Part shown: positions 21,739 to 45,536 of the stretch, in pieces
Layout of the letters: each line of letters opens with the position of its first letter
Position numbering within the stretch: the first letter of the stretch is position 1
DNA from: Corynebacterium sp. MSK297
Lineage (GTDB): Bacteria; Actinomycetota; Actinomycetes; Mycobacteriales; Mycobacteriaceae
Direction of reading: 5' to 3'
Assembly: GCF_030232885.1 (NCBI RefSeq)
Contig: NZ_JASPGD010000004.1
Location: 217,159 to 281,158, forward strand
Length of the DNA stretch: 64,000 bases
Made by a program: the position numbers and the translations under genes
Notes under the pieces: generated by a model
The model's database searches: none
Told to the model about the DNA's origin: nothing
What the model saw: only the letters and a program-made list of their open reading frames with translations

Positions 21739-22578
21739 ATGAAGTTCCGTAAAGTACTCGCTGCCGTGGCGGCGGCAGTGGTGGGAGCAACCGGTGTCGT
21801 AGCAAATACGCCTGCGGCGGAAGCACAGCAGCGTAACGTGGTGCTGTTCGGCGACTCTTTGTTGGCCAACCCACCGCACGGTTTTGTGGACTTCGTTAAC
21901 CCAGGGTTTACCACGGGCGTCACGCTCGCAGAGCACAGCAGCTGCCCGAAGGGTATTGACCGCATCGGCGTGGAATTGGAGCGTCGACACGGTGCTCATG
22001 TGTCTGATTTTTCGTGCTCGGGTGCGGCTACCTATGGAATGTTGAATAATCACAGCCCGTTGGCGATGCAGGTTGATGAGGCGTTGCAGTCCCAGCAACT
22101 AAATCCAGAAACCACCAATGTACACATGCAGATTGGCCTGAACGACAACTTCAAGGGCTTTGGAATTTATGCTCACCAAAAGCAGTCGTACCGTGACTAC
22201 GTCGGTCATCAGATCGATCGTATCCGCCACGCCGCACCGAACGCGCGAATTCAGATTTTGGGGTACCCAGAAATGTTGGGTATGAATGACTTTGTCTGCC
22301 CAGTCCACTTCAACCAGGTAGAACTGAGCTTCCCGTTTGCGCCGTTGGGTAATTCTTTACGTGCGGTGACAGACTGGCAGAAGACTGTTGCCGCGGACAA
22401 GGATGTCGAATACTTCGACCTCAACCGTGCGACTCATGGCCATGGCCAGTGTGCCCCGAAGGAACAGCGCTGGGTAGCTGGATTCCTGGACAACCAGTCT
22501 GATCCGTACAACATGACCTTCCACTACACGCATGAAGGAAACCGCCATATCGCCGATATCATCGCTGGTACCTGGTAA
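21739..22578 (+). CDS. Secreted SGNH/GDSL-family hydrolase
   Basis: 279 residues with a Sec signal peptide (MKFRKVLAAVAAAVVGATGV, cleavage near AEA-QQ at about 30). Block I has NVVLFGDSLLANPPHGF with the nucleophile Ser, block III IGLNDNFKGFG carries the Asn of the oxyanion hole, and the C-terminal block V MTFHYTHEGNRHIAD supplies the His. Four cysteines occur in the mature part. The fold class cleaves esters or lipids outside the cell; the substrate is unknown. ATG 21739 is preceded by AAAGGGG. It is the first gene of the accessory region. Confidence 0.85.
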   Translation: MKFRKVLAAVAAAVVGATGVVANTPAAEAQQRNVVLFGDSLLANPPHGFVDFVNPGFTTGVTLAEHSSCPKGIDRIGVELERRHGAHVSDFSCSGAATYGMLNNHSPLAMQVDEALQSQQLNPETTNVHMQIGLNDNFKGFGIYAHQKQSYRDYVGHQIDRIRHAAPNARIQILGYPEMLGMNDFVCPVHFNQVELSFPFAPLGNSLRAVTDWQKTVAADKDVEYFDLNRATHGHGQCAPKEQRWVAGFLDNQSDPYNMTFHYTHEGNRHIADIIAGTW

Positions 22579-22611
22579 AATGCAAGCGGTTTTTGATGTG
22601 CTGCTCGGGCT

Positions 22612-23837
22612 TTAGTTCGTTTCTGCGTTGTTAAGCCAGTGCGATAACTCGAGTGCAAGGCGCACTTCGGCGCCGTTGATATCACGTGTGCCGAGCGCGT
22701 CACGGAACTTGTCGACGCGATATTTGACGGTGTTGCGGTGAATCACCATATCTTTCGCCGCGCCGGAAATACCGTTTTTTAAGAAGCTTCGTGCCGTTTC
22801 GCGGATGGCGAAGGAGTATTCATCGCTGGCGGAAAGTTCACCCAGCACTGACCAGATCAGATTGTGGGCTAGGGGGATCCGGTCAATAAAAGCCGCGGCA
22901 GTCAGTGCACCCTCGTCGGCGCTGCTTAAGACCGAGCGTTCTTTATTTGTCTGGGCTTCGGCTACTCGCCGTAGACGGTCTGCTTGGGTGTGTGCGTCCT
23001 TGAATCCACTGGCGCCAGTGAAACCAGCAGCGATGGTGAGGTGACATTCTGTGGGCACAATAGACAGGAATTCGTCGTTCGTCACCGGTAAGTGCTGCCC
23101 GTGTAGCTGTTCGGTGCCTAATGCACACCAACCCCACACTAAAGAAGGACTGGAATGCACGATGAGCGAGGGGCGATTGGCGCGAGTTTTTCCGTTATTT
23201 CTTTAGCTGTGCGAAACAGCTCTTCGTGTTCTAATTGCTTAGTTGGGTTGGCCCAGAGATGAAAAGCGGTGTGGCAGGTGTCGAGTGAATAATCCATAAT
23301 CACAGGTACGTCTTCCGGGGCACGCAAAGCCTTACGGACTTCGTTGAGCAATGCGGGGTCGCCTGGAACACGCAGCCGGGCCGCTTCTTCGGCATAAATA
23401 GCGGGAAATGAGTTTGTTCGAATACGCACGAAGTTGTTCGCTAGTACTCGAAGCTGCTCAAGGATCTGAATAATATCGGTCACATCGTATTCATGGAATA
23501 ACTCATGGGTTAGCCGGAGTAATTTATGCTCTAAGACGTTGTGCGTGCCATGAAATAGCATAATCAAGGTTGACAGCGGCATCCCTCGTGCTGCGAGCGT
23601 GTGTGCCATTCGTCTCAAGGGTTGTCCCGGTTGGATAGTTCGGGGGTCGCCATCGGAGGCAACGAAGTCTTTGAAGAGCATGAGATTGGTATAGATGCTC
23701 TGCCGCATAGTTTCGGTGAAATCGGAATTGAAGATTTCCTGAAACTCTTTGCTGACTTGTTCGCAAATTGAGTCAGTAAGAGATTGACTATTTTTGTTCA
23801 AGTGTTGGGTGACTACTACTCGGATTTGTTTATCCAT
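22612..23837 (-). pseudogene. PucR-type transcriptional regulator split by a frameshift
   Basis: Two minus-strand frames together make one regulator of about 405 residues. The upstream part (23837 down to 23139, 232 codons) is a helical sensory domain. The downstream part (readable from about 23160 to 22612) ends in the PucR helix-turn-helix, MVIHRNTVKYRVDKFRDALG. The two overlap by about 20 bases and read smoothly as one protein only if the frame shifts by one between about 23190 and 23155; the second part has LIVHSSPSLVWGWCALG across the junction. Neither half alone would be a complete regulator. A sequencing error, a real inactivation or rare frameshifting are all possible. It sits beside the accessory catabolic genes it may have controlled. 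Confidence 0.72.
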
Positions 23838-24012
23838 GGGCTGGACGTTCCTTCCTTATTTGTGAGTGTGTGCTTGACGTTCGTCAGTGTGTACTTGGCG
23901 GTGCTTGGCTCGTGTATGCGAAGTAGCGACAAGCACACGCTCCAGATCTGGTTATGGTTACCTAATTAATAAGTGAGCCAATTAACATTCTCGTAGGAAA
24001 AATATAGCGTGA

Positions 24013-24124: not shown

Positions 24125-24709
24125 ATGGGACACACACGGGCACGACGACTCGTCGCAGCTCTCACCGCAGGCATGATCGGCGCGGCCGGCGCGGGTGTAG
24201 CCATGGCACAAGGTGGTTTGAACGCTGGTTTGGCACTGTCCGGAACCATATTCAAAGTCACTATGGGAGAAGCGAACGGAACAGATTTTTCACTGTTCGT
24301 TGACTCCGACACCTTGGGTGAAAATGGCGATATTCCAGTTTCTCGCCTGCGCTTCGGTGAAGTAACAGCCTCCGATCTTTGCCTTTCCGCCAAACTGGGT
24401 GCGATTCCCGGTGTTGGTGACGTTAGCTTTAAACTAACTTCCGACGGTGAGAACACTGTGGCAGGTAACAATCTGATTGTTGGAGCGAAAGTTCTGCAAG
24501 GTGACCTGACACTGCAACGCCCTCGTCTAGGTGCGGATGTCAGCCAACGGAACCCGGATGCTCCTCCAGGGTCGTGGGGATTGATTTCGGACCACATTAA
24601 CGTCCATGCCCGCAATATCGATGCAACGTCGCTGGCCTCGGACGACCTCACGGTGAATAACGTCTCAGTTACCATCGAAAGGGGCGATGGCAATGTCTGT
24701 GCCACCTAA
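24125..24709 (+). CDS. Secreted DUF6230-family protein
   Basis: 194 residues. An N-terminal signal with basic start and hydrophobic core (RRLVAALTAGMIGAAGAGVA, cleavage near AMAQ) is followed by a beta-rich extracellular domain (ISDHINVHARNIDATSLASD, ending in SVTIERGDGNVCAT). Members in Streptomyces are often labelled cholesterol esterase, but no lipase signature is visible here, so that label is not used. The family is typically encoded immediately before a DUF6114 membrane protein, as here. ATG 24125 is preceded by GAAGGAG. The end overlaps the next gene, indicating coupled translation. Confidence 0.7.
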   Translation: MGHTRARRLVAALTAGMIGAAGAGVAMAQGGLNAGLALSGTIFKVTMGEANGTDFSLFVDSDTLGENGDIPVSRLRFGEVTASDLCLSAKLGAIPGVGDVSFKLTSDGENTVAGNNLIVGAKVLQGDLTLQRPRLGADVSQRNPDAPPGSWGLISDHINVHARNIDATSLASDDLTVNNVSVTIERGDGNVCAT

Positions 24710-25931
24710 CGGAAAATCCGCAGGTGAAAACTCGCTTAGCGGAGCGTCTCCGGAGCTGGTTACCGAACAATTCGCCAAAGCCAGCGCCGCAGAAGCACCA
24801 CAGTCTATGACCGGGCGTTTTCGTCGATGGCGCCGTGGGCGTCCGTTTATGGGCGGGCTGTTTATGATCCTCGCTGGAGTAATTATTCTGGCGCCGGCAT
24901 ATTTGTCTTTTCAAATACAGGATTTGCTCGTAGTCGTCTCCGCTATGTCGGGAGTATCGACTTTGCTGATTGGGATCATGCTCATTATGTCCGGTATTGG
25001 TGTATGGGTACGCCCGGATCTGACAGTTTTTGCTGGCATCCTCGCATTGGTTCTCGCCGTGGTTTCACTCCCGGCCTCAAATTTCGGTGGATTCATCATT
25101 GGGGCATTGTTCGGCATCATTGGTGGTTCCCTCGCTATCGCGTGGGATGAAAGAGACCGCGAAAGCGTCAAAAAAGACAGGCGCAAGAAAAAAGCGGACA
25201 AAACCAACCAAAAGCGTCGGCAAGCATCCACAAATGCAGAACCACACGCTCAGGACTCTTCCGCCGCGCATAACACTACCTCCGCGGATAATCAGAAGAA
25301 GAAACCCACAGACCTGACACTAGATGAGCTACTTGGTAACTCTTCAACCACCAAGTCAGTCCTAGCGGTGGCATTGGCACTGGCTGCCAGTATCGCCGTT
25401 GTCAGCGCTCCACAACCGTATGCCGAAGCGCAAGTTGACCCGGTTGCTCCGAGCATTGTGGGAGTGACGCAACCGGTGACAGCTGACGAAGTGACGGTGA
25501 GTGGCAACGCCAAGATTGCGATCGTCATCGTGGAAACTCAGCAAGGACCACAAAAAATGATCGAACTTAGCGGCAACGCTGTGTCTGTTGACAATATTGC
25601 ATTCGATCTCCCTGGACGTGATGGTGCAGTGAGCGCATTGACTTCAGGTCCAGGAACCACAGCGACGTTGAAAGGTAATCCTGCGGTGCTGCGTACGCGC
25701 ATCTTGAACGCCACCCCGGCTATAGCTGGGGTAGAGACGATTCCTCTCAGGCTCGACGCTGCGGGCAATATTGACGAACTGACAGATCAACTCGTTGCTG
25801 CTGGACTCACGGAGCTTGCAGTTCCGGATGCAGTCATGAATCACATCTCGTTGCGTGATGTTTCGCTGGAAGCATTGTCCGTCGACGGCGATGTACTGGA
25901 TGCGCCAAACCTGAGCGTGCATGCCAGGTAG
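24693..25931 (+). CDS. DUF6114-family membrane protein with extra secreted-like domain
   Basis: 412 residues. After a polar 45-residue start, about four membrane segments (about 50-150: GLFMILAGVIILAPAYLSFQ, LLVVVSAMSGVSTLLIGIML, FAGILALVLAVVSLPASNFG, FGGFIIGALFGIIGGSLAIA) match the DUF6114 pattern. A Lys-rich cytoplasmic stretch (about 155-225) follows. A second hydrophobic segment, VLAVALALAASIAVVSAPQP, is followed by an Ala-Gln cleavage-like site and about 180 residues of beta-rich sequence resembling the DUF6230 partner. ATG 24693 is favoured because GGGG is 8 bases upstream, whereas ATG 24687 is too close. Function unknown; an envelope or lipid-related role is likely from family context. 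Confidence 0.68.
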   Translation: MSVPPNGKSAGENSLSGASPELVTEQFAKASAAEAPQSMTGRFRRWRRGRPFMGGLFMILAGVIILAPAYLSFQIQDLLVVVSAMSGVSTLLIGIMLIMSGIGVWVRPDLTVFAGILALVLAVVSLPASNFGGFIIGALFGIIGGSLAIAWDERDRESVKKDRRKKKADKTNQKRRQASTNAEPHAQDSSAAHNTTSADNQKKKPTDLTLDELLGNSSTTKSVLAVALALAASIAVVSAPQPYAEAQVDPVAPSIVGVTQPVTADEVTVSGNAKIAIVIVETQQGPQKMIELSGNAVSVDNIAFDLPGRDGAVSALTSGPGTTATLKGNPAVLRTRILNATPAIAGVETIPLRLDAAGNIDELTDQLVAAGLTELAVPDAVMNHISLRDVSLEALSVDGDVLDAPNLSVHAR

Positions 25932-25991: not shown

Positions 25992-26750
25992 ATGGCGATG
26001 AAGCCCTATCGCAAACCAACGGTATGCGTGGTCGGCGCAGGTGCAGCTGGTGTCGCTGCCGCTGCGGAATGCGCATTGATCGGTTTCGACACAGTAGTTG
26101 TCGAGGAAAAAGATACCGTCGGTGGTAAATACGCCGGGCCGCGTCCTGCTGACCGCCCTAAGAAATTCGGTTTCCGGAAAGGTAACCTTAAGCACGCCGG
26201 TTATGACGGCTCGGCGGAGTCTGCTTGTGCTCATATCAAAGCGGCCTTGGATTTTTCGCCAGCGCAGCTGCGCCTGGAGACCCACGCTGATACCGCGGCG
26301 TTCGATAAAGACTCTGCACAATGGCACATCACCGTTACCGATGTGAATACCGGCGAAGCTGATGACGAGGTTATTAAAGCTGACGTTTTGATTCTTGCTA
26401 CCGGCACAAGCAGCCTGGACGAAATTCGGGGGCCACACGGCCGTGAAATTGATGTCCCAGGCTTGCATCGACACCTCGATATCGTTCCTATTGGGGCGCC
26501 GAACCTGTTACTCATGGATGCCCCAGAGCCCGCGGTGCAGGGGCTGTTTAGCTACCCGCTTGATCTCATTGAAGCTAAAGCTAATCACGCACAGCATTGG
26601 GTCCGTCGCCTTGAGGTGAAAGGGCCTGGTCAGCTGGCGGCCAATCGGTCTTATTGGAAGACGGCCGCACCGGAACGGAAAAAGCTGATCTCTCAGTTGC
26701 GCGATTTCATGGAAGCTGCACACACGCACACCCCACTCACAGAAAGCTAG
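25992..26750 (+). CDS. Short FMO-like/Rossmann flavoprotein
   Basis: 252 residues. Starts with a dinucleotide-binding fold: VCVVGAGAAGVAAAAECALI with GxGxxG, an acidic end to the second strand (VVVEEKDTVGG), and the later ATG motif (VLILATGTSSLDEI) of flavin-containing monooxygenases and related oxidoreductases. It is about half the length of a normal FMO: the FMO hallmark FxGxxxHxxxY and the second NADP motif are missing. It could be a truncated monooxygenase or a compact flavin-binding partner. A good ribosome site, AAGGAG, precedes ATG 25992, and the frame is intact. The MpaB-family gene starts 6 bases later, so the two are probably one unit. Confidence 0.6.
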   Translation: MAMKPYRKPTVCVVGAGAAGVAAAAECALIGFDTVVVEEKDTVGGKYAGPRPADRPKKFGFRKGNLKHAGYDGSAESACAHIKAALDFSPAQLRLETHADTAAFDKDSAQWHITVTDVNTGEADDEVIKADVLILATGTSSLDEIRGPHGREIDVPGLHRHLDIVPIGAPNLLLMDAPEPAVQGLFSYPLDLIEAKANHAQHWVRRLEVKGPGQLAANRSYWKTAAPERKKLISQLRDFMEAAHTHTPLTES

Positions 26751-26756
26751 ATACGT

Positions 26757-27650
26757 ATGACTACCAGCATGAGTTCTCGTGATCACATGACCGACAGTGA
26801 ATCCAACCAATATCTGGCCTCTGGTGCGCCCGCAGTCGAGCTACCAGAGCTCGGACCCGATTCCATTTTGTGGCAGCGCTTCGGTGATTGGCGCTCTCTG
26901 TTTGCAGCGTTGTATGCCGGTGTGCTGCAAACTACACACAAAGATATCAGCCGCTCCTTGGTCGAACACTCCAACTTCTTTGACAATGAAGTCGCCCGTC
27001 TGGTCCGTTCGGCTTTCCCCATTATTCGCACCGTCTATGAAGGCGAGGAATATGGTGCGATGATTCGCGATTTCCACCGCAACGTGAAAGGTACTCATGA
27101 GGACGGTACTCGCTACCACTCCATGAACCCCGATGCCTATTACTGGGCGCACGCCACGTTCGCAATGATGCCGTATGTTTTGGCTGGTAATTTTTCACCG
27201 AAGCTGAGCAAGCAAGAAAAAGAACAGCTTTTTCAAGAATGCCGCAAGTGGTATTCTTACTACGGTGTCGCTGAACCGAAGGATGCTCCAACCAATTACG
27301 AAGAGTTCGACGCCTACGTCAACGATTTCATCGACAACAAGCTGCGGAAGACAGAGACCATTGAACGGTCTCGTATTGTCCGGGTTCTCGATATCGATCC
27401 ACCGCACCCAGCAATTCCTGCGAAGCTATGGGCGCCGCTTTCTCCGATCGTTGCGCGCTTGCTCATTTGGGTTTCTACAGGTCTAGTTCCAGAAAATCTG
27501 CGGGAAAAACTGGGGTGGAGCTGGACGAAGAAAGACCAGCGTCGTTTCTTCTTGTTCTCTCGTACCGTACGGGGCATCTTTGCAGTACTGCCACGCAAAA
27601 TGCGCATGGTGCCGATCGCTGACAACGCGTTCAAACGTGCCGGAGCATAA
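26757..27650 (+). CDS. MpaB-family (DUF2236) heme oxygenase-like protein, copy 1
   Basis: 297 residues, the common actinobacterial length for this superfamily, which includes fungal MpaB and latex-clearing protein Lcp. The family core is clear: WRSLFAALYAGVLQTTHKDI, then IRDFHRNVKGTHEDGTRYHS and NPDAYYWAHATFAMMPYVL, where conserved Arg/His residues position heme b in related proteins. No signal peptide. Lcp and MpaB cleave C=C bonds of isoprenoid chains oxidatively; the substrate here is unknown. The start is ATG 26757 (AGAAAG upstream); ATG 26769 is an alternative. It follows the short flavoprotein gene directly. Confidence 0.82.
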   Translation: MTTSMSSRDHMTDSESNQYLASGAPAVELPELGPDSILWQRFGDWRSLFAALYAGVLQTTHKDISRSLVEHSNFFDNEVARLVRSAFPIIRTVYEGEEYGAMIRDFHRNVKGTHEDGTRYHSMNPDAYYWAHATFAMMPYVLAGNFSPKLSKQEKEQLFQECRKWYSYYGVAEPKDAPTNYEEFDAYVNDFIDNKLRKTETIERSRIVRVLDIDPPHPAIPAKLWAPLSPIVARLLIWVSTGLVPENLREKLGWSWTKKDQRRFFLFSRTVRGIFAVLPRKMRMVPIADNAFKRAGA

Positions 27651-27882: not shown

Positions 27883-29463
27883 TTAGGGCAGTAGTTTCAG
27901 CTTTTTGCCCCACAGCATTGCCTGTGCCATCAAGGTGCCGTACGTCTTGCGTGGTAGCGAAGCTGGCCCGCGCATAGAAATACCGCGTTGTTCCGCGACG
28001 TTGCGTGGCTCCGTGTATTTCAGTAATCCCTCGTCGCCATGGCGGCGGGCAACGCCGGAATCTTTCATGCCGCCTAGAGGGCTCGCAACGGTGGCCCAAG
28101 TTGCGGTGTAACCGTCGTTAATGCCCACGCCGCCGGCTTGTAGTTGTCCAGCGGCCTTCCAACCAGTTTCGGAAGCAGCAAAGACTGCAGCATTCAAACC
28201 ATAAGACGTGTCGTTGGCCTTGGCGATGGCCTCGTCCAGGTTCGCAGCTTTTTCGATGAAGACGACGGGACCGAAAACTTCGTCGTGGTATAAGTCTGCG
28301 TCGGTGGGAACGTCGACAAGCACAGTAGGTTCGTAGAAATATCGTCCCAGCTCAGGGCGGGCGCGTCCGCCAGCGATGACGCGGGCACCTTTGTCCTTGG
28401 CATTTTCTACAAACGTCGAGACGGTTTCAAGCTGGTCAGCGTTCACCAGCGAGCCCATGTCAGCATCCCAATCAAATCCGGAAGCCAGGCGCATTTGTTT
28501 GACAGCTTTGCTGAAGCGTGAGACAAATTCGTCGTACACAGCTTCTTCTACGTAGATACGCTCAATGGATACACACAGCTGACCGCTGTTGGAAAAGCAT
28601 GCCGAGATTGCTTCGCGGAGTGCGCGGTCCAGATTGGCATCGGCGGAGATGAGCAAAGGGTTTTTGCCACCCAGTTCAGCAGAAAAGCCAATGAGCCGTT
28701 CACCTGCAGTACGACCTAAGATGCGTCCGGTGGCAGTCGAGCCGGTAAACATCAGGTAGTCACATTTATTCGCGATTGCGCTTCCGACCACACGGCCAGA
28801 ACCTGTGACGACCTGCATGAGGTCGCGTGGCAAGCCGGATTCATAGAGCAACCGTAGGACGGAAAGCAGAGAGAATGGAGTTTGTGAGTCTGGTTTTGCC
28901 ACAACACCATTGCCTGCCAACAGTGCAGGAATCGCGTCAGACATACCCAAGGCAAGTGGGTAATTCCATGGGCTGATCTGTCCGACGATGCCTTTCGGAG
29001 TCCGTTGCAACTTCGAGCGGGTGAGGCCAGGAATGGCTCCAGGCATGGATTTTTCTTCCAACAGGCGTGGGGCAGCGTTGGCATAAAAGCGAGCGTTACT
29101 GACTACGTCGAGGACTTCGTCAAGAGCGGATAAACGGTTTTTCCCGGTTTCCATTTGCACGATGTCGACGAGGAGTTCGCGGTGTGCGATTACTCGGTCG
29201 TGAAAATCGCGGAAAATTTGTTGCCGCTGTTTGATTGGAGTGTCTGCCCAACGTTGCTGAGCCTGACGAGCGCGACCGAAAGCGTAGTCCACGACTTCTT
29301 CATCGCCAACATAAACGTGTGCGAATGGTTCATCCAAAAATGGTGATTCAATGTCTTGCCGGTCAGATTCGTTGTGGAATCGGCCAGTCACGTTGGCTGT
29401 GAGCAGGAGATATCCATTCACAAGATCATCGGGCAGTGGTGCAACCTTGATGCGTGGTGCCAT
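27883..29463 (-). CDS. Succinate-semialdehyde dehydrogenase-type aldehyde dehydrogenase (GabD2-like)
   Basis: 526 residues. Oxidises an aldehyde to the acid with NAD(P). It has the catalytic Glu motif SAELGGKNPLLISAD and the catalytic Cys region SACFSNSGQLCVSIERIYV. The cofactor-fold motif GQISPWNYPLALGMSDAIPA, FTGSTATGRILG and the C-terminal EVFGPVVFIEKA are present. Length and motif spelling match mycobacterial GabD2-type enzymes, but substrate choice among semialdehydes and long aldehydes cannot be read from sequence. It is on the minus strand downstream of the second MpaB-family gene (151-bp gap), so aldehydes made by that oxygenase are a plausible substrate. Confidence 0.85.
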   Translation of the reverse strand: MAPRIKVAPLPDDLVNGYLLLTANVTGRFHNESDRQDIESPFLDEPFAHVYVGDEEVVDYAFGRARQAQQRWADTPIKQRQQIFRDFHDRVIAHRELLVDIVQMETGKNRLSALDEVLDVVSNARFYANAAPRLLEEKSMPGAIPGLTRSKLQRTPKGIVGQISPWNYPLALGMSDAIPALLAGNGVVAKPDSQTPFSLLSVLRLLYESGLPRDLMQVVTGSGRVVGSAIANKCDYLMFTGSTATGRILGRTAGERLIGFSAELGGKNPLLISADANLDRALREAISACFSNSGQLCVSIERIYVEEAVYDEFVSRFSKAVKQMRLASGFDWDADMGSLVNADQLETVSTFVENAKDKGARVIAGGRARPELGRYFYEPTVLVDVPTDADLYHDEVFGPVVFIEKAANLDEAIAKANDTSYGLNAAVFAASETGWKAAGQLQAGGVGINDGYTATWATVASPLGGMKDSGVARRHGDEGLLKYTEPRNVAEQRGISMRGPASLPRKTYGTLMAQAMLWGKKLKLLP

Positions 29464-29614: not shown

Positions 29615-30589
29615 TTAGTCGAAAGAGCCGATAGGCTTGAGCTGATCGTTTTCGTCAAACATTTCGTGTTTGATCATCTCGTCGCGGCCAGGGTTCATGT
29701 AGCGCTTCGACAATGGCAGTTTCGGGTAAACCTTACGGATGAAGCTGGCCAAGCGGTCAAACCGCTTTTGATCCTTCTTTGTCCAAGGAACCTGCAGGAT
29801 ATCGCGTTGCGATTGCTCCAGGGTGCCGATAGTCAACCAGATCATGCTGCGCATGATTGGCTTCCAGATGATCTTCCATACTCGCTCTGAAACCCCATCT
29901 GGTGCCTTGATGGGCTCAACGCGGGCGGTGCGCAGGGCGAAATCGACGGTGTCGTTGCGCTCGAGCACGGTTTCGGTCATTTCAGCGATGTAGTCGACCA
30001 GTTCCTGGTAGGTGTCGAAGACCGGACGGTTGGATACGCCGTATTTTTCCCACCAAGTGACACCTTCTTGGACGATTTGTTCACGCTCTTCGCGGGTGAA
30101 CGGGGTACCGAACAAGTCCTGGGTACGGATCACGCGGTAGACGAAAGTTGCGTGAGCCCACCAGTAGGTATCGGGATTCAGGGAGTGGTAGCGCTGGCCA
30201 TCGCGCAATTTGCCGCGAATGTTGACGTGGTAATCGCGAATCTTTTTCGACAGTTCATCGGATGGGGTGTACATCGATTCGATGATCTGTGGTGTGGAAC
30301 GCTCCAAGCGGGCGAAAGGCTCTTCGAAGAACTTCGAGTGATCCAGCAGCGCTTGGCCGATCGATGGGTGCATGTTTTGCAGGATGCCGGTGTAACCGCG
30401 CATCAGCTGCAGGCGGCTGTCAGCACCGTAGCGCCACAGCAGTGAATCTTCGTCTAACGGTGCACGCTTGAGTTCGCGGTCTTGTTCTGGGCGTGGTTCG
30501 CCGTGGGTGCCGGTTGCGCGCTGTTCGTCAGAATCTGGGGGAAACTGCTCTTGGGTGGCGGCTTTGTGGTCAACTGGTGAAGATGTCAT
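29615..30589 (-). CDS. MpaB-family (DUF2236) heme oxygenase-like protein, copy 2
   Basis: 324 residues. Clear relative of copy 1: LLWRYGADSRLQLMRGYTGI, IRDYHVNIRGKLRDGQRYHS, NPDTYWWAHATFVYRVIRTQ, and ITRLTIGTLE-like IWLTIGTLEQSQRDILQVPW match segments of the 26757-27650 protein throughout. The N-terminal 40 residues are polar and differ. No signal peptide. ATG 30587-30589 has AAAGGATG upstream. It is separated from the aldehyde dehydrogenase gene on the same strand by 151 bp that include a GC-rich palindromic stretch (GGCCC ... GGGCC, about 29523-29562). The function is as for copy 1: oxidative cleavage or oxygenation, substrate unknown. Confidence 0.82.
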   Translation of the reverse strand: MTSSPVDHKAATQEQFPPDSDEQRATGTHGEPRPEQDRELKRAPLDEDSLLWRYGADSRLQLMRGYTGILQNMHPSIGQALLDHSKFFEEPFARLERSTPQIIESMYTPSDELSKKIRDYHVNIRGKLRDGQRYHSLNPDTYWWAHATFVYRVIRTQDLFGTPFTREEREQIVQEGVTWWEKYGVSNRPVFDTYQELVDYIAEMTETVLERNDTVDFALRTARVEPIKAPDGVSERVWKIIWKPIMRSMIWLTIGTLEQSQRDILQVPWTKKDQKRFDRLASFIRKVYPKLPLSKRYMNPGRDEMIKHEMFDENDQLKPIGSFD

Positions 30590-37365: not shown

Positions 37366-38913
37366 ATGAATGGTTTGAGTCCGGAAGAACTCAGCACAGA
37401 GACCATTGCAGAAATCCTGGCTGCTGGTGGACGTGAAGAGGGGTGCCGTGGCGAAATCAAAATCGTTGATACCACGCTGCGTGACGCCCACCAGTCCATT
37501 TGGGCAACCCGTATGACCACCGAGCATATTATGTCCATGATCGAAGATCTCGACCAAGCAGGTTTCGAGCACATCGATTTGGTTGCACCAATTCAATTCG
37601 ATGTTTCTGTGCGGTACCTACAGCAAGATCCGTGGGAGCGTGTGCGTAAAGTCCACCAGGCCGCTCCGAATTCCAAGTTCCGAGCGTTAATTCGCTCCAA
37701 GAACTTGGCATCATTCGACTTTCTTCCCGACGACGTAATTCGTGGCTGGGTTGAACGTCTCTATGCCAATGGCTTCCGTGTCATTGGAGCTTTTGATGGC
37801 TTGAACGACGTCGATAACATTGTCGACGGTTTGGTATTGGCAAAAGAGCTGGGAGCTGAGACTTTCGGTTGCTTGTCATACTGCTTATCCCCAGTGCACA
37901 CCGACGAACTCTACGTCGAAAAGGCTAAAGAGCTTGTCGAACGCGCAGACGTCGACCGCATCATGCTCAAAGACGCCGGCGGTTTGCTCACCCCAGATCG
38001 CATCAAGACCATCATTCCGGCGATTCGTGAGGCCATCGGCGATCGTATTTTGGAAGTCCACACGCACAGCTTGACCGGTTTGTCCCCATTGGTCTACCTG
38101 TTTGCGGCAGAACTCGGTGTTGACGCTATTCATACATCCACCGAGCCGCTGTCAGACGGTCCTGGACAACCGTCGACACAGCGCCTGGTACGCGACCTTC
38201 GCGCGCTAGGGTATACGGTCAACATTGACGACGAACGTCTTGAGCGTGTGAGTGAGCGCCTACAGGAAATCGCTGACAATGAAGATAAACCATTGGGCGA
38301 GCCACGTGCGTATGGCGGTCTGCATTACATGCATCAGCTTCCTGGAGGCATGCTGACGAACTTCCAGTCGCAGCTAGAAACTGCGGGTCTGGGCGATCGC
38401 TTCGAAGAATTGCTGTATGAGGTTGCTCGGGTACGTGAAGAACTCGCGTATCCAATCATGATTACGCCGTTTGCACAGTTTGTTGGTACACAAGCCGTGA
38501 TGAACGTGATGTCGGGTGACCGTTACAGCGTGGTTCCGAATGAGGTGAAGAAATACGCCTTGGAATACTACGGCGAACTTTTGGCTCCTATCGAGCCGAA
38601 TGCGCGCGAAAAGATTTTGGCCAACGGGTCTTCGGAAATTTCCGAAGAACGTCCTGAACTCGAACCAATGCTGCCGGGATTACAAGAGCGCCACCCAGAT
38701 GAAGACCTGGATACGATCTTGCTGCGCGCCATGTTTGCCGGTGGCCAAGTCGATGCGATGCACAAAGCTGTCGCTGAAGGCACTAGTGGTGATGCAGAAG
38801 CAGCCGGTGCACTGACAGCGTTAATCAAGGCTGTTTACGATTCTGCGGATTCTGGTCAATTCCACATTTCTGCCCCAGATCTCGACATCAACCTGACAAA
38901 GAAAGCGAAGTAA
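37366..38913 (+). CDS. Carboxyltransferase subunit (pyruvate carboxylase/transcarboxylase 5S type)
   Basis: 515 residues. TIM-barrel carboxyltransferase with [18 protein letters not shown] (metal-binding Asp), the barrel strand [16 protein letters not shown], where the Lys is expected to be carboxylated, and [20 protein letters not shown] with the His metal ligands. The C-terminal third matches the PYC_OADA tail ([26 protein letters not shown] region). It is therefore of the pyruvate/oxaloacetate or methylmalonyl-CoA:pyruvate type, not the acyl-CoA (crotonase-fold) type. The start is ATG 37366 with AGGAGG upstream; an upstream in-frame start at 37312 lacks one. BCCP and biotin carboxylase genes follow. 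Confidence 0.88.
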
Positions 38914-38921: not shown

Positions 38922-39470
38922 ATGACTGACAACACCAGCCTCAAAGAACTCAAGTCCCTGTTGAAGTGGGTCAACCTCAACGAAGACATTGAAGAACTCT
39001 CTGTAAGCTACGGTGATATCCAGATTGCGATGTCACGGACCCCAGGCGGGCTGAATGCAGCCCCCGCCGCCCCGGCGCAAGCTCCATCGCAGCCTTCGAA
39101 TAACGCTCCTACCTCAGCTCCTGCTGCCCAGCAGGCGCCTGCGGAAAAGCCAGCGGAAGCCGACTCAGCTAGCCAGAAACCAACTGAGGAATCAACCCCT
39201 GCAGCTAGCGGTAACGCCGGACAGGCGAGTGGAGAAACCGTCACCTCGCCGATGGTGGGTACTTTCTATGCTGCTCCAAAGCCTGGCGCACCGGCGTTTG
39301 TTGAGGTCGGGGATGAAGTCGAAGAAGGACAGGTTCTGTGCATCGTCGAAGTGATGAAGCTGATGAACAACATTGAATCCAAGGTCGCTGGAACCGTCAA
39401 AGAAATTCTTGTTGACAACGAAGATCCAGTCGAACACGGTCAGCCATTGATGGTTATCGAGCCGAAGTAA
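38922..39470 (+). CDS. Biotin carboxyl carrier protein
   Basis: 182 residues. The N-terminal 40 residues form a helical docking region, followed by an Ala/Pro/Gln-rich linker (about 45-105) and a C-terminal biotinyl domain with [20 protein letters not shown] and the biotinylation motif [11 protein letters not shown] (Lys146). The architecture is AccB-like. It begins 8 bases after the carboxyltransferase stop and is followed 19 bases later by the biotin carboxylase gene, so all three form one enzyme. Confidence 0.92.
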
Positions 39471-39489
39471 GCTGCGAGGTTTGTTCCCT

Positions 39490-40842
39490 ATGAGCACATT
39501 ATTAAACAGCGTGCTGATCGCTAACCGCGGTGAAATCGCCCTGCGCATCATTCGCGCGTGCCGTGAGCTCGGCATCAAATCGATCCTTGCATATTCCGAA
39601 GGTGACAAAGATTCGTTGCCGGTGAAGCTGGCAGATCAAGCCGTATGCATTGGCCCTGCTAACGCTGCAAAAAGCTACAACAATCCGGAATTGATTATGT
39701 CTGCAGCAATGGCCTTTGGTGCAGATGCGATTCACCCGGGTTACGGATTCCTTTCGGAAAAAGCAGACTTTGTCGACATGGTCGAGGAAGAAGAAATTGG
39801 TTTCGTCGGCCCGAAGGCAGACCACATTCGCTTGATGGGCGATAAGATTGCCGCGAAGAAAGTGGCACGCAAGGCCGGCGTACCGACTGTGCCAGGTTCC
39901 GATGGCTTGGTGAGTGATGTTGATGAGGCTTTCAAAATTGCCAAAGAAGCAGGATTCCCGTTGTTGATTAAGGCAGCTGCCGGTGGTGGAGGCCGTGGTA
40001 TGCGTGTGGTGGAATCGGAAGACACGCTAGCCAAAGACTTGGACGAAATTATGTCCGAGGCAGAAACTGCGTTTAACGATCCATCTGTCTACATCGAGCG
40101 CTATCTGACGGACATCCGCCACATCGAAATTCAGATGCTGGCTGATGGCGAAAACGCTGTTGCATTGGGCGAGCGCGATTGCACTTCGCAGCGACGTAAT
40201 CAAAAGCTGATTGAAGAGGCGCCTTCGCCGGCTATCGACGAGGAATTGCGTGCCGGGCTAGAACAGGCGGCTATTAACCTCTGTAAAGAAGTTGGATACA
40301 AAAATGCCGGTACCGTGGAGTTTGTTTTCGATAACACGGAGAACAAGTACTATTTCATCGAGATGAATACCCGTATCCAGGTGGAGCACCCTGTCACCGA
40401 GATGGTCACCGGCGTCGACCTGATTAAAGAGCAGCTGCGTATTGCTTCTGGCTTGCCGCTGTCGATCACCCAAGACGATGTGCACATCAAAGGCCATGCC
40501 ATTGAGTGCCGCATCAACGCGGAGGATCCTAACGAGAACTTCGCACCGCGTCCAGGAAAAATCACCGAATTCCGTGCCCCAGGCGGTTTTGGTGTGCGTA
40601 TGGATACCCACATTGAAACTGGCTATACGATTCCGCCGTTTTATGATTCGATGGTCGGAAAGCTTATTGTCTGGGCGGAAGACCGCGATGAAGCGATTTC
40701 TCGGATGTTGCGCTCGATTGATGAGTTAGTGACGGAAGGTGTGGTTACCACTGCACCATTCCAAGCAATGCTGTTGGACAGCGAGAAATTCCGTTCGGGA
40801 GATTTCAATACAGGCTATGTAGCGAAACTTCTCGAAGGTTAA
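39490..40842 (+). CDS. Biotin carboxylase subunit
   Basis: About 450 residues, AccC-like length. The N-terminal domain begins VLIANRGEIALRIIRACREL. The ATP-grasp domain includes the glycine loop KAAAGGGGRGMRVV and ERDCTSQRRNQKLIEEAPS. The catalytic region is EMNTRIQVEHPVTEMVTGVD, and the C-terminal domain has GHAIECRINAEDP. It lacks a fused BCCP or carboxyltransferase, unlike the one-chain pyruvate carboxylase typical of Corynebacterium. ATG 39490 is chosen (TTG 39481 is in frame). A 25-base gap separates it from the reductase gene. Confidence 0.92.
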   Translation: MSTLLNSVLIANRGEIALRIIRACRELGIKSILAYSEGDKDSLPVKLADQAVCIGPANAAKSYNNPELIMSAAMAFGADAIHPGYGFLSEKADFVDMVEEEEIGFVGPKADHIRLMGDKIAAKKVARKAGVPTVPGSDGLVSDVDEAFKIAKEAGFPLLIKAAAGGGGRGMRVVESEDTLAKDLDEIMSEAETAFNDPSVYIERYLTDIRHIEIQMLADGENAVALGERDCTSQRRNQKLIEEAPSPAIDEELRAGLEQAAINLCKEVGYKNAGTVEFVFDNTENKYYFIEMNTRIQVEHPVTEMVTGVDLIKEQLRIASGLPLSITQDDVHIKGHAIECRINAEDPNENFAPRPGKITEFRAPGGFGVRMDTHIETGYTIPPFYDSMVGKLIVWAEDRDEAISRMLRSIDELVTEGVVTTAPFQAMLLDSEKFRSGDFNTGYVAKLLEG

Positions 40843-40867: not shown

Positions 40868-41977
40868 ATGTATGTTCGCGTAGATGAGATCACTCGATGC
40901 ACTCCATCGATCAGTGCATTCAAGTTGGTGCCCGAAGGTGAAGAAGTATTGCCGAACTTTACGTCGGGAGCGCATATCGATGTGCACTTGCCTGGTGGTT
41001 TCATGCGGCAGTATTCGTTGTACCGTTTACCCTCTGATGAACAATCTTCTGGAGGTAATTCCGCGGACAATTTTGACACTCACGGAGACCGGAAAGAGGC
41101 TAGCAACGGTGGAGATGCCCCTAGTTGTTACCGGATCGCGGTAAAGCGCGAGCCTGATTCACGTGGTGGTTCAATTGCTGCGCATGAATTAGAAGAAGGC
41201 GCGCGGTTAGAAATCTCCGAACCGCGGAATAACTTTCCTATGATTAGAGGTGCACAACGCCACGTTTTTCTTGCTGCTGGAGTAGGCATTACACCCATTT
41301 TCGAGCACGCTCGCAGGCTGCACGAAAAAGGCGCAAATTTTCAAGTTTTGTACGTGGCGAAATCTGCAGAGGAAGCGGCACTGTCCGAAGAACTCAAGCA
41401 GATGTGTCCCGATAACGTGGAATTTGTCTTTGGTGAAAACCGCAGGGCAGACCACACTGCTATGGTTCGAGAGGTTATTGAAGGACCGGAACCAGAACAA
41501 CGCAGTGGTGGCTTTTTGAAGCGTGCTACCCGGAAAGTGTTGGGGAAAGACGATCCAGCTCGTTTCCATGGTGTGCATGTATATATGTGTGGTCCTGCCG
41601 GGTTCATGGATTCCGCCCGTGCGGTGGCTCGTGAGTTTTTGCCGGATACTCGTATTCATAATGAGAATTTTCATCCTCGGACTTCGGCGCACCAAGAAGG
41701 AGACGAACCTTTTGTCGTAGAGGTCGATGGCGAAAAGTTCACTATCGGCGTCAGGGAAACGATCGCCGAGGTTCTCGATAGGCATGATGTTCCGGTATAT
41801 ACCTCCTGTGAGGAAGGTACGTGTGGCACCTGTCAGATGATGGTGGTGGAAGGAGCTGCTGATCATCGTGATTCGGTGTTTAGTACTGAACAGCACCAAG
41901 CAGGGCGTATTGCTACGTGTGTATCTCGTGCTGAGGGAGAAAAACTCGTCTTGCGCCGTTGTGACCAAGACGACTAA
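40868..41977 (+). CDS. Phthalate-dioxygenase-reductase-like flavoprotein with C-terminal 2Fe-2S domain
   Basis: 369 residues. The N-terminal FAD/FMN-binding barrel has RQYSLYRL (flavin motif), followed by the nucleotide-binding domain (HVFLAAGVGITPIFEHARRL; YMCGPAGFMDSA) and a plant-type ferredoxin domain with YTSCEEGTCGTCQMM plus a distal IATCV cysteine. This order defines the PDR/VanB group, which feeds electrons to oxygenases. About 30 extra polar residues (Gly/Asn/Asp-rich) interrupt the flavin domain after RLPSD, and another insertion lies near residue 200 (EQRSGGFLKRATRKVLGKDD). It starts 25 bases after biotin carboxylase and precedes the Lcp-like gene. Confidence 0.87.
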   Translation: MYVRVDEITRCTPSISAFKLVPEGEEVLPNFTSGAHIDVHLPGGFMRQYSLYRLPSDEQSSGGNSADNFDTHGDRKEASNGGDAPSCYRIAVKREPDSRGGSIAAHELEEGARLEISEPRNNFPMIRGAQRHVFLAAGVGITPIFEHARRLHEKGANFQVLYVAKSAEEAALSEELKQMCPDNVEFVFGENRRADHTAMVREVIEGPEPEQRSGGFLKRATRKVLGKDDPARFHGVHVYMCGPAGFMDSARAVAREFLPDTRIHNENFHPRTSAHQEGDEPFVVEVDGEKFTIGVRETIAEVLDRHDVPVYTSCEEGTCGTCQMMVVEGAADHRDSVFSTEQHQAGRIATCVSRAEGEKLVLRRCDQDD

Positions 41978-42202: not shown

Positions 42203-43594
42203 ATGTCTAGTCCCACCACAAACCATCACGAGAAACAGAAGACGGCTCACGTTTCCCACGCGCTTGGGGAATTGGAGATTTTGCCTCGTTCGGAAAATCC
42301 TTACGAGGACTACCGCTATTTTTACCGAGATGGTATGCCTCTTCGCCCGGCACCAGAACGTCGTACTGCGAAACCATCATGGTCAACACTGCGCCACAAT
42401 ATTTTCGATAAGTGGCATCACGTTCGTGATCAATGGACCTATGATTCGCTGCAAACGCGTTTGTTGGATGACCACATGTGGCAGACTGATGAACAAGGCA
42501 ACGCGCTGGCTGAGATGTTCAAGCGCGTCGGTGCGAAAAAGGGCCGTTCCGATTTCGAAGTCGCGTTGAATCAGGGAATTGAGGCGGTAAACAACCCGGA
42601 GCCGGAATTGCTGGCGTTTTTCGACCACGTCGACCACTTGCCGGAATGGCTGGACCTGGAAGCAGCTGAGCGTGGGCGAGTTGCATATTATAACGTCACG
42701 CCTTCTTCAGAGCTGTTGGCCATCGCCTTTGCCTATTGGGCAACTGCAATGGAAGACCGTACGTCTGCCGCAACTGCACAAACGGCCATGTTTGAAAATA
42801 AAGCCATGCAACGAGTTAAAGAAACTGTGCAGTTCTTCGTTGATCTCGGGCGCCATGGCGTTTTTGATCGCTATAGCGATGGTTTTAAAGCCGCAGTTCG
42901 GGTACGTGTTGCACATGCGCAAGCTAATCGCGGACTGGAACGTCTCTGGGGTAAAGACCACTACAACACCTTTGGACGCCCAATCGGCTCGAGCTTCTTG
43001 GTTTCTGGTGAGGGATGGTTTGCGCTCATGCCGTTGGCTATTGATGAATTCTTCGGTCGGCCACATTCTGGACGAGACTGGGACGATGTAGCGATGTATT
43101 GGGCCTACGTTCTTTATGTCATGGGGGCCGAAGACCGCATTATCCCGAAAACCGGTGATGAAATGCGCAAAATGACGGATTACATCTACGCCAATGGTGG
43201 CATGTCGAGCGACTACCGCGTACAGATTTCTACAGCGTTAATGAGCGCTCTCGAGGAAATTGATAAGAAGATTCCAGCTGTCGTCTTGGGTGCGCTCACC
43301 CTCATCGTCGGAGAAGACGACGTTCGATTCATGGTGAAAGATACTAAGTGGGAAAACGCCACTCTCAAGCCCATTGCAGCGGCTTTTGCTGCGAAAGCTC
43401 GGGCTGAGGCGGCTTTCTACCGCGCAAAAGATCACCTTCCAGGGGCGAACAAGCGGAAACAAAAACGTGCCCAGGATGGGCGGCCGCCATGGTTGGATAA
43501 TTTCGAATTGGTGCAAAAACACCTTGAGAAAAACAACCTTGACGTCAAGACCGATTACGCGCTGCACGATACATCTGCAGAAGCTATGCGCTAA
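42203..43594 (+). CDS. Lcp-like large MpaB/DUF2236 oxygenase
   Basis: 463 residues, in the size range of latex-clearing protein (Lcp) rather than the 300-residue MpaB copies. Family features: ELLAIAFAYWATAMEDRTSA, DRYSDGFKAAVRVRVAHAQA (the Arg...His segment matching the heme region of Lcp), and FGRPIGSSFLVSGEGWFALM. No Sec or Tat signal, unlike secreted Lcp, so it would act in the cytoplasm. The C-terminal 60 residues are Lys-rich. The start is ATG 42203 with CGGAG upstream; a longer frame begins at 42125 but has no ribosome site. The 11-bp inverted repeat and the GlxR-like site lie upstream. Confidence 0.78.
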   Translation: MSSPTTNHHEKQKTAHVSHALGELEILPRSENPYEDYRYFYRDGMPLRPAPERRTAKPSWSTLRHNIFDKWHHVRDQWTYDSLQTRLLDDHMWQTDEQGNALAEMFKRVGAKKGRSDFEVALNQGIEAVNNPEPELLAFFDHVDHLPEWLDLEAAERGRVAYYNVTPSSELLAIAFAYWATAMEDRTSAATAQTAMFENKAMQRVKETVQFFVDLGRHGVFDRYSDGFKAAVRVRVAHAQANRGLERLWGKDHYNTFGRPIGSSFLVSGEGWFALMPLAIDEFFGRPHSGRDWDDVAMYWAYVLYVMGAEDRIIPKTGDEMRKMTDYIYANGGMSSDYRVQISTALMSALEEIDKKIPAVVLGALTLIVGEDDVRFMVKDTKWENATLKPIAAAFAAKARAEAAFYRAKDHLPGANKRKQKRAQDGRPPWLDNFELVQKHLEKNNLDVKTDYALHDTSAEAMR

Positions 43595-43600
43595 TCCCAG

Positions 43601-44016
43601 GCGCACTCCCTACTGGACGTACTCTTTGTATCTGCCGGACGGCTTGCAACCTGGAGGAGAAGGCTTCTTCCATACTGGCATGGTGCGGGCAATGCATGCG
43701 CATGTGCGTCGTGTACATACTGCTCTGGGGTTATACCTGGACCAAGGAAGAACAGCAGGACATTTACTACCTGTGGAAGGTCGCAGGCCGCATGGTGGGG
43801 GTTCCGGAGACGTACGGAATTGCGTGCCAACGAATGCAACAGATTCTCGAGTTTTCGACACCAACTGTGGCCGAAAGATTCGATCTGTTGCGTAAGAACC
43901 CGGGAGCTTTAGAGGAGGAGATTGCAAGAAACGAGCAGCTAATCATAGGTATTCTCGATCCAGAAGCAGCGTATCTGAAGCAGGACGACGGCGTCGTCGT
44001 CAAAGACGCTGCATAA
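43601..44016 (+). pseudogene. Remnant of a second Lcp-like gene (broken)
   Basis: Two reading frames carry family-like pieces. From about 43610, YWTYSLYLPDGLQPGGEGFF and MVRAMHAHVRRVH correspond to the region before the heme-site helix. Then, in another frame from about 43730, WTKEEQQDIYYLWKVAGRMV and VPETYGIACQRMQQILEF resemble the C-terminal part of the family. The two pieces sit closer than in an intact protein, so there is an internal deletion plus a frame change between about 43700 and 43740. No start or ribosome site is present. It lies directly downstream of the intact Lcp-like gene, suggesting an old tandem duplication or a decayed partner. Confidence 0.62.
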
Positions 44017-44162
44017 TGGTAACAACTACCAACGCCAAAATCTGCGTGTTATGCCCTGTGTATTTCGCGCGGTGTGAAAATCACATGGTGTTCGGTAGTC
44101 TCTAATCAAACTGAACATTAACTGCAAACGATTCTCTGATCTTGCAAAGGAAGTTTTTTATC

Positions 44163-45536
44163 ATGTCCATTCCATATCGCGTACAAAACCCGGCCACGAA
44201 CGAGGTCGTCGAATCATTTGATACGGCGACAGACCAGGAAATCCAGGATGTTTTGAGCAAGGCTCATGAGGCATTCCAGACTTGGCGGAACACCACTTTC
44301 GCAGAGCGCGCCAAGATTGTTAACAAGGCTGCGGATTTGCTGCGTGAGCGTAAAACCGAGCTAGCAAAGATCGCTGCAGAAGAAATGGGTAAGCAGATCC
44401 CAGAGCTGGAAGGAGAGGTTGAGTTCTCCGCTAATATTCTGGCGTTTTACGCGGATCGTGCAGAAGAATACTCCGCTGATATGCCAATTGAGGTTCCTGG
44501 CGGTAAGGCAGTGATGCGTCGTTTGCCACTCGGTGTTCTGCTGGGCATCATGCCGTGGAACTACCCTTACTACCAGGTTGCCCGCTTTGCTGGCCCGAAC
44601 TTGATGAACGGCAACGGCATTATTTTGAAGCACGCCGAGATCTGCCCGAAGTCGTCGGCAGCGTTCGAGAAGATCTTCCTCGAGGCAGGTCTACCAGAAG
44701 GCGTTTTCAACAACGTTTATGCTAATCACGGCCAGATCTCCACTATCATTGCTGATAAGCGCATTCAGGGCGTTTCCCTGACTGGTTCCGAGCGCGCAGG
44801 TGCCGCGGTTGCTTCACAGGCAGGTAAAGCACTGAAGAAGTGCGTGCTTGAGTTGGGCGGTACTGACCCATACATCGTGCTGGATACGAACGATGTCAAG
44901 GACGCAGCAAAGGTCGCTTGGGAAAAGCGCATCGACAACACTGGTCAGGCGTGCACCTCGAACAAACGCATCATTGTCATGGAGGATATCTACGACGAGT
45001 TCGTTGATGAGATGGTGCGTATCGCAGAATCCTACAAGCCTGGCGATCCACTCAACCCGAACGAGGGCGAGTTCTACCCACTGTCTTCCCGCGATGCTGC
45101 GGAGAAGCTTAACGACCAGGTACAGCGTGCGGTGCAAGAAGGTGCCAAGCTGCACACCGGCGGTGAACTGCACGAGTCCGCTGCGTACTACAGCCCAGCT
45201 GTGCTGACCGACGTGCCAGTTGGTTCCGAGTCCTACTACGACGAATTCTTCGGCCCAGTTGCTGAGATCTACTCCGTGAGCTCGGAAGAAGAAGCCATCG
45301 AGCTGGCAAACAACTCGAACTACGGCTTGGGCGGCGCAGTTTTCTCGGAAGACAAAGAACGTGCCAAGAAGGTTGCCGACAAGATCGAGTCCGGCATGAT
45401 CCACGTCAACCTGCCACAGGCCATGACGCCAGTGCTGCCATTCGGTGGCGTGAAGAACTCCGGCTTCGGCCGTGAGCTTTCCGTGCTGGCGCTTGATGAG
45501 TTCGTGAACAAGCAGTCCTTCTACGTCAACGACTAA
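44163..45536 (+). CDS. Succinate-semialdehyde dehydrogenase-like aldehyde dehydrogenase (GabD1-type)
   Basis: 457 residues. It has PWNYPYYQVARFAGPNLMNG, SLTGSERAGAAVASQAGKAL, the catalytic Glu in CVLELGGTDPYIVLDTNDV, the catalytic Cys in NNTGQACTSNKRIIV-like DNTGQACTSNKRII, and FFGPVAEIYSVSSEEEAI. The spelling ELGGTDP and the short length mark the GabD1 (Rv0234c-like) group of NAD(P)-dependent semialdehyde dehydrogenases. ATG 44163 follows AAGGAAG; a longer frame from 44142 is less likely. It differs clearly from the 526-residue dehydrogenase at 27883-29463. A strong terminator follows. Confidence 0.9.
   Translation: MSIPYRVQNPATNEVVESFDTATDQEIQDVLSKAHEAFQTWRNTTFAERAKIVNKAADLLRERKTELAKIAAEEMGKQIPELEGEVEFSANILAFYADRAEEYSADMPIEVPGGKAVMRRLPLGVLLGIMPWNYPYYQVARFAGPNLMNGNGIILKHAEICPKSSAAFEKIFLEAGLPEGVFNNVYANHGQISTIIADKRIQGVSLTGSERAGAAVASQAGKALKKCVLELGGTDPYIVLDTNDVKDAAKVAWEKRIDNTGQACTSNKRIIVMEDIYDEFVDEMVRIAESYKPGDPLNPNEGEFYPLSSRDAAEKLNDQVQRAVQEGAKLHTGGELHESAAYYSPAVLTDVPVGSESYYDEFFGPVAEIYSVSSEEEAIELANNSNYGLGGAVFSEDKERAKKVADKIESGMIHVNLPQAMTPVLPFGGVKNSGFGRELSVLALDEFVNKQSFYVND

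Follow-up and report, generated by a model that had tools for sequence, protein, structure and literature searches.

What would a Corynebacterium use MpaB- and Lcp-type oxygenases for when they are encoded beside a biotin-dependent carboxylase and the end genes of the beta-ketoadipate pathway? The question is raised by positions 21739-45536 of a 64,000-nt stretch (hereafter the window) from Corynebacterium sp. MSK297 (genome G000, 2.36 Mb), which an earlier note had read as a single island for oxidative lipid or isoprenoid catabolism built around these oxygenases. The three intact DUF2236-superfamily genes named there match PF09995 (MPAB_Lcp_cat) at 26757-27650, 29615-30589 and 42125-43594; they are the only PF09995 genes of the whole genome, and we call them oxygenases A1, A2 and B. 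The remnant named beside them is a decayed fourth gene of this type, oxygenase C, and the flavoprotein, reductase, two aldehyde dehydrogenases, thiolase, CoA-transferase subunits A and B, permeases and biotin carboxylase complex are all present as described. The gene combination is real and conserved, and its enzyme classes are known. From it we infer a pathway, including its substrate, products and direction and the joint action of its parts: quite possibly, though short of probably, two gene modules together form a catabolic route from isoprenoids to succinyl-CoA and acetyl-CoA via levulinate and beta-ketoadipate.

Two gene modules around the oxygenases

We used tblastn to place the window genes on 43 loci, picked mostly for PF09995, because open reading frame (ORF) calls in the high-GC loci gave antisense artefacts. 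PF09995 is present in 28 of 151 Corynebacterium genomes (genomes and loci carry our G and L numbers where needed). The gene order around the oxygenases is kept in relatives, so the grouping is more than chance; the earlier note had staked its proposal on such a conserved neighbourhood.

Module 1 consists of genes for a DUF6230 protein with an N-terminal hydrophobic stretch by hydropathy (24125..24709, plus strand; PF19741, E 2.7e-22), a DUF6114 membrane protein (24687..25931, plus; PF19609, E 1.4e-32), a short flavoprotein with an FAD-binding Rossmann domain (25992..26750, plus; Pyr_redox_2, E 1.9e-8), the MpaB-type oxygenase A1 (26757..27650, plus; PF09995, E 1.6e-57, 195.6 bits, cut-off 23), the SSADH-family aldehyde dehydrogenase ALDH1 (27883..29463, minus; NF006916, 744.6 bits, cut-off 521) and the MpaB-type oxygenase A2 (29615..30589, minus; PF09995, E 4.7e-53, 181 bits, cut-off 23). 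Among 19 non-duplicate A1 loci, several of them from near-identical strains, the flavoprotein gene lies immediately 5' of A1 on the same strand in all 19, DUF6230 lies at most 4.3 kb from A1 and DUF6114 is found in all 19, and A2 directly neighbours ALDH1 on a shared strand in 17. The module was seen in C. pelargi, C. kefirresidentii, C. yonathiae, C. mucifaciens, C. haemomassiliense and C. terpenotabidum, and its setting varies: in one group (L041) it lies near dapA/thyX/dapB and pnp genes, in another (L033) beside two ABC-transporter genes.

A1 and A2 share PF09995 with the MpaB-type t-anethole oxygenase (8s1j), the nitrile rubber oxygenase Nro1 and fungal MpaB. The model of A1 (pLDDT 91) has a predicted fold like those of solved MpaB-type members, with 8s1j as its best match and a resemblance to Lcp, and Nro1 is similar in length to A1 and A2 in the available part of its description (PMC12724181). 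The Foldseek search with this model gave no match below E 0.001, the A1 sequence found nothing in the PDB up to E 1, its profile found unrelated PDB chains only, and the comparison of the A1 and B/C profiles reached a probability of 28.9% with no usable residue match. As candidate heme ligands of A1 and A2, H132 and H107 are invariant in 71 sequences, although no alignment placed them on the residues of a solved structure. Unlike the known MpaB-type enzymes, A1 and A2 have the flavoprotein, DUF6230, DUF6114 and ALDH1 as conserved partners.

Module 2 comprises an MFS permease (35475..36833, minus; TIGR00883, 350 bits, below the cut-off of 443), the three subunits of a split biotin carboxylase, namely the carboxyltransferase subunit PYCB (37312..38913, plus; PYC_OADA and HMGL-like), the biotin carboxyl carrier protein (BCCP; 38922..39470, plus; TIGR00531, 145.3 bits, cut-off 115.2; EVMKLM motif) and the biotin carboxylase (BC; 39481..40842, plus; TIGR00514, 683.5 bits, cut-off 626.5), then a reductase of the phthalate-dioxygenase-reductase type (40868..41977, plus; 2pia, E 5.1e-40), the Lcp-type oxygenase B (42203..43594, plus; PF09995, 24.4 bits, E 3.5e-5, cut-off 23), oxygenase C and the aldehyde dehydrogenase ALDH2 (44142..45536, plus; PF00171, E 6.4e-132), whose best NCBIfam model is NF006915, an SSADH, at 442 bits, below its cut-off of 730. 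The longest frame of B begins at 42125; the start at 42203 (Met27 of that frame), which the earlier note had preferred, is supported by the resulting 463 residues, the closest homologs having 462 and 463. The remnant of C (43605..44013, plus) consists of three pieces in two reading frames that match residues 147-195, 222-247 and 319-390 of the 391-residue oxygenase C of C. pelargi.

Close PYCB orthologs (E below 1e-240) occur in 11 of the 151 genomes, and all of these carriers have B and C, with C decayed in the window. The order MFS, PYCB, BCCP, BC, reductase, B, C, ALDH2 is kept in all ten other carriers, the MFS gene adjoining the carboxylase and ALDH2 coming after C in each, and a YdcZ-type permease stands between BC and the reductase in nine of them. 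The reductase is 35-41% identical in the other carriers and points away from B in all ten, unlike the window copy. G009 has B broken into two pieces, and G105 has two copies of it. Another kind of B locus, at 65% identity to B, was seen in G087 (L053 8921-10249) and, as a second copy, in G007 (L054 9173-10501), with rpoB, a PorA porin gene and a 3-hydroxyisobutyrate-dehydrogenase-like gene as neighbours. Homologs of both B and PYCB are listed for Leucobacter luti.

Sequence comparison shows homology of B and C to the rubber oxygenase Lcp (PDB 5o1l, 5o1m), whose heme residues they keep. The B profile matches Lcp at E 3.1e-15, and three Lcp chains are the sole PDB matches at E <= 0.001 of the B model (pLDDT 87), at 15-16% identity. 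Aligned to 5o1m, R230 (41/41 B/C sequences), T234 (38/41, Ser in three) and H264 (41/41) correspond to Lcp Arg164, Thr168 and His198; the heme expected by the earlier note is thus represented by its residues, and heme content itself is a prediction. The predicted fold and these residues could also speak for rubber degradation, with the oxygenases as Lcp-like enzymes for polyisoprene. We regard this as extremely unlikely: apart from the low identity of B, a simple hydropathy scan found no N-terminal hydrophobic segment in A1, A2 or B and did find one in a secreted GDSL control, whereas Lcp works on rubber outside the cell (PMC5522427, available in part). B and C further differ from Lcp in having Glu at the Lys167 position in 36/41 sequences, and their genes stand with those for a reductase, a carboxylase and ALDH2.

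Module 1 adjoins module 2 in the window and in C. pelargi, and the two are apart in the other carriers mapped; we therefore describe two modules and dropped the single-island reading, since relatives carry them separately in the tblastn maps. The junctions differ: ALDH2 lies next to PucR in C. pelargi and A2 next to the YdcZ-type permease in the window (compared with L050/L051), so the junction was remade while the modules stayed together. The separation could instead mean two unrelated neighbours, with module 1 acting on an envelope or host lipid, module 2 on an imported keto acid, and B and C on something else. Module 1 does occur without module 2 in four genomes (G015, G054, G104, G127), two genomes have module 2 and A2 but no A1, and DUF6230 is found in 60 of the 151 Corynebacterium genomes, many of them without PF09995. 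We consider this account rather unlikely, given that A2 is present in 11/11 carriers vs 7/140 other genomes and A1 in 9/11 carriers, and that two phylogenetically close lineages hold the modules adjacent in differing arrangements, although shared ancestry could partly explain both observations. DUF6230 is commoner than the oxygenases beyond the genus too, occurring in 36 of 200 genomes of the order.

Other genes of the region are broken besides C. The PucR-type regulator (22612..23837, minus) is split into two overlapping frames (22612-23160 and 23139-23837, HTH_30 in the C-terminal piece), which both match, at 45%, the single 1242-base frame of C. pelargi. The YdcZ-type permease (30617..31694, plus) is likewise in two frames, with DMT_YdcZ in 30617-31135 and, by tblastn, counterparts of 30798-31694 in module 2 of relatives. 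This strain may be losing parts of the system, unless the breaks are assembly errors. The GDSL gene at 21739, once counted as an island member, has no match in the module-1 loci searched and was excluded from the system on that ground. The region is flanked on one side by a glutamyl/glutaminyl-tRNA synthetase gene with tRNA-Gln and tRNA-Glu and on the other by an IclR gene followed by an aconitase-family gene.

The split biotin carboxylase

PYCB is homologous to pyruvate-type carboxyltransferases (2nx9, E 5.7e-80), and the database names of its relatives include pyruvate carboxylase subunit B. We counted residues in the window protein and the best 120 of its 1226 homologs, with five pyruvate-type sequences as the only reference. 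The GGAT motif is replaced by APIQ, with GGA changed to API in 121/121 sequences and T to Q in 120/121; the Arg of FRVFD (Arg159) is Gly in 121/121, and KDM is KDA (Met222 to Ala) in 121/121. The family keeps D58, K220, H250, H252, Q61 and R128, the first four of which we take to be the metal-binding and carbamate-lysine residues of pyruvate-type carboxyltransferases. PYCB therefore resembles pyruvate carboxylase, oxaloacetate decarboxylase and the transcarboxylase 5S subunit in homology and in these residues, and departs from the 5S-type enzymes in the three replacements and in being encoded with a CoA-transferase and a thiolase. A second PYC_OADA gene elsewhere in the genome has a frame of 1171 residues that also matches BC, so it is an ordinary pyruvate carboxylase.

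Outside Corynebacterium, we read the neighbourhoods of five PYCB relatives with at least 43% identity. First, a Cnuibacter plasmid holds IclR, PYCB, BCCP, BC, BioY, CoA-transferase A and B, and thiolase genes. Second, G272, from another family of the order, has CoA-transferase B and A, thiolase, PYCB, BCCP and BC. Third, G452 has CoA-transferase, BCCP, BC and PYCB, with a thiolase of another subfamily. Fourth, an Arthrobacter plasmid carries the MFS gene (65% identity) with PYCB, BCCP, BC and biotin uptake. At last, a Caballeronia plasmid carries PYCB, BCCP, BC, a sodium:solute symporter, carbonic anhydrase, a biotin-synthesis transaminase and an aldehyde dehydrogenase frame. A CoA-transferase thus stands beside PYCB in three of the five and a thiolase as well in two; both of these thiolases have 3-oxoadipyl-CoA thiolase as their best NCBIfam model (442 and 460 bits, below the cut-off of 605). 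No window-type A, B or C oxygenase was found in the five neighbourhoods. In this arrangement the split carboxylase, CoA-transferase and thiolase form a unit of their own, which hints at the fate of the cleavage products; the earlier note had cast them as a supporting part of the oxygenase island, from which the Cnuibacter plasmid and the genome of another family set them free.

A class-wide search of 394 genomes found PYCB in the source genome and G452 only. Six plasmid records matched PYCB, and neighbourhoods were read in four of them (H4 and H6 were left out). An acetoacetate decarboxylase near the Caballeronia PYCB appears in the record annotation only, had no Pfam match at E 0.001 and was not used. 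Among relatives at 32-39% identity, mapped for window genes only, two (L098, L100) have a thiolase-like gene nearby. A Rhodococcus pyridinivorans plasmid (L115 10255-16998) encodes a 39% identical PYCB relative and a biotin carboxylase with a pyruvate-phosphate-dikinase-like gene, an AMP-binding gene, an OB-fold protein and a thiolase; this cluster is perhaps another type of ketone carboxylase.

The pca cassette in genomes with no strong ring dioxygenase

Between the modules lie genes for a thiolase in the PcaF position (31716..33059, minus; NF004853 acetyl-CoA C-acetyltransferase, 643.7 bits, cut-off 551), a PcaR-type IclR regulator (33014..33817, minus; TIGR02431, 327.2 bits, cut-off 284.75) and the 3-oxoacid CoA-transferase subunits PcaI and PcaJ (33915..35296, as 33915-34658 and 34658-35296, plus; TIGR02429 and TIGR02428 above cut-off). 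The order pcaJ/pcaI-pcaR-thiolase is the same in all nine ring-degrader loci fetched and in G040, and identities to the nine loci are 77-82% for PcaI, 67-78% for the thiolase (67-82% for the two together) and 54-63% for PcaR. These comparisons make the cassette an ortholog of the one in ring-degraders, and it resembles the lower beta-ketoadipate pathway (PcaIJ, PcaF, PcaR). It lies at most 8.2 kb from module 2 in 8 of the 11 carriers, whereas PcaI is hundreds of kb away in G009 and G129 and on another contig in G025.

Unlike a beta-ketoadipate pathway for aromatic rings, the window genome has no PF00775 (intradiol dioxygenase) match, no PF02426 (CatC) match and no full-length PcaD (best match 44.7 bits, partial). 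Strong dioxygenase matches (best E at most 1e-46) occur in 33 of the 151 genomes and weak ones (E 1e-12 or worse) in 24 further genomes, including the carriers G049 and G129 (partial); the ten other carriers have no strong match, and 10 of the 11 carriers have no CatC. A close PcaI (E at most 1.3e-97, at least 65% identity) is found in 43 genomes, 31 with a strong dioxygenase and 12 without, and the latter are exactly the 11 carriers and G040. The association of carriers with PcaI has a Fisher p of 1e-14 among 118 genomes, with relatedness not corrected for, and the PcaI cut is tight: at a looser limit of E 1e-80, eleven more dioxygenase-free genomes come in, whose proteins are 58-63% identical.

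Ordinary aromatic catabolism plus anaplerosis, in which pcaIJ and the thiolase would handle beta-ketoadipate from aromatic rings and PYCB, BCCP and BC would make up a split pyruvate carboxylase, would account for the PcaR and PcaIJ matches above family cut-offs, for the database names of PYCB and for PcaD-like genes in 6 of 11 carriers (above cut-off in G007 only). It is nevertheless very unlikely in view of the lack of strong dioxygenase matches in all carriers and of CatC in 10 of 11, the full-length pyruvate carboxylase elsewhere in the genome and the pyruvate motif replaced throughout the 121 family members.

The ketone itself may differ. In this alternative the architecture is the same, and the carboxylase takes acetone or another methyl ketone set free by C=C cleavage to acetoacetate or a longer 3-oxoacid, which the CoA-transferase and thiolase finish. 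The best model of the window thiolase, acetyl-CoA C-acetyltransferase, would suit this, and neither TIGR02429 nor TIGR02428 tells PcaIJ apart from acetoacetate transferases; C. terpenotabidum is reported to form geranylacetone from squalene, and according to the available part of PMC12724181 acetone is set free when MpaB cleaves. We demoted acetone to a rival, and think it unlikely, because the window cassette has its ortholog in ring-degraders and includes a PcaR-type regulator, and because the thiolases outside the genus score nearest to 3-oxoadipyl-CoA thiolase. The MFS permease, moreover, accompanies the carboxylase even on the Arthrobacter plasmid, and acetone would need none.

A possible route from squalene to beta-ketoadipate

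In the levulinate route that we favor, intracellular heme oxygenases, with A1 and B of predicted fold, would cut the C=C bonds of squalene-type isoprenoids to an aldehyde and a ketone, and the reductase would perhaps reduce the heme. Cleavage would yield 4-oxopentanal (levulinaldehyde) and, on complete cutting of squalene, also succinaldehyde and acetone. Cutting all six double bonds of squalene gives four levulinaldehyde, one succinaldehyde and two acetone (20 + 4 + 6 = 30 carbons). The SSADH-like ALDH1 and ALDH2 would oxidize 4-oxopentanal to levulinate and succinaldehyde to succinate; enzymes of this type are candidates because they might accept small aldehydes such as squalene fragments. 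The biotin-dependent carboxylase would then add CO2 to the methyl group of levulinate, proposed as its substrate because this carboxylation gives exactly 3-oxoadipate (beta-ketoadipate), and PcaIJ and the thiolase in the PcaF position would turn the product into succinyl-CoA and acetyl-CoA under PcaR control. The known levulinate (lva) pathway runs via levulinyl-CoA, and the acetone (Acx) carboxylase is biotin-independent. Both would consume the same small ketones as the proposed route, and to our knowledge neither uses a 5S-type carboxyltransferase.

Corynebacterium terpenotabidum (G127) is reported in the available part of its genome paper to cleave squalene, with geranylacetone as the product; that part names no gene for the cleavage and lacks the word "oxygenase". 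We found module 1 in this genome, with no ALDH1 match in the locus and with A2 elsewhere, and with genes for an acyl-CoA synthetase, a DUF3556 protein and a flavin oxidoreductase between module 1 and PucR. Both the locus without an ALDH1 match and the genome search, which found no PYCB, fit a product left as a ketone. The isoprenoid proposal of the earlier note is strengthened by this occurrence of module 1, by the Lcp homology and heme residues of B and C and by the modeled fold of A1, while the substrate is still something that we infer. C. terpenotabidum and several larger Corynebacterium genomes also encode a longer class of PF09995 proteins (about 122-140 bits; L069-L073), whose gene neighbourhoods are different.

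Several observations weigh against the proposed route, beginning with C. terpenotabidum, which lacks module 2 together with PYCB and whose longer PF09995 gene is an alternative candidate for the squalene cleaver. The window thiolase scores 396.6 bits against the 3-oxoadipyl-CoA thiolase model, below its cut-off of 605, and PYCB keeps Arg128, presumably the binder of the pyruvate carboxylate. The carriers G009 and G129 lack A1 in the tblastn maps, G087 has B without PYCB, G025 keeps CatC, and the PcaD-like genes of six carriers point the same way. In the cassette tree, the eight sampled carriers cluster, and a single ring-degrader (G060) falls inside their group; all carriers may belong to one clade, the profile p-values are overstated because of this clustering, and the PcaI/dioxygenase pattern is possibly one event, since the tree joins the sampled carriers. 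With C decayed and PucR and YdcZ split, the system is possibly failing in the window strain.

Squalene is a major lipid of human sebum. We advance tentatively, as one conceivable outcome, that skin- and animal-associated corynebacteria own an undescribed pathway from squalene to central metabolism, in which the oxygenases would give levulinaldehyde and a new levulinate carboxylase would lead to beta-ketoadipate with no aromatic ring involved. As part of the same tentative proposal, this carboxylase would represent a branch of the 5S/pyruvate carboxyltransferase family that has gone unnoticed and is also found on plasmids of soil bacteria. We recognized no description of the locus in the open-licence literature, levulinate not being among the topics searched. 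If confirmed, the route from isoprenoid via levulinate to beta-ketoadipate would be new. The analysis offers candidate genes for squalene cleavage in named Corynebacterium species and a testable reason for the persistence of beta-ketoadipate end genes without ring cleavage. It would also give a new substrate class to a branch of biotin carboxylases listed in databases as pyruvate carboxylase and, if levulinate carboxylation is true, one enzyme would link a biomass chemical to central metabolism.

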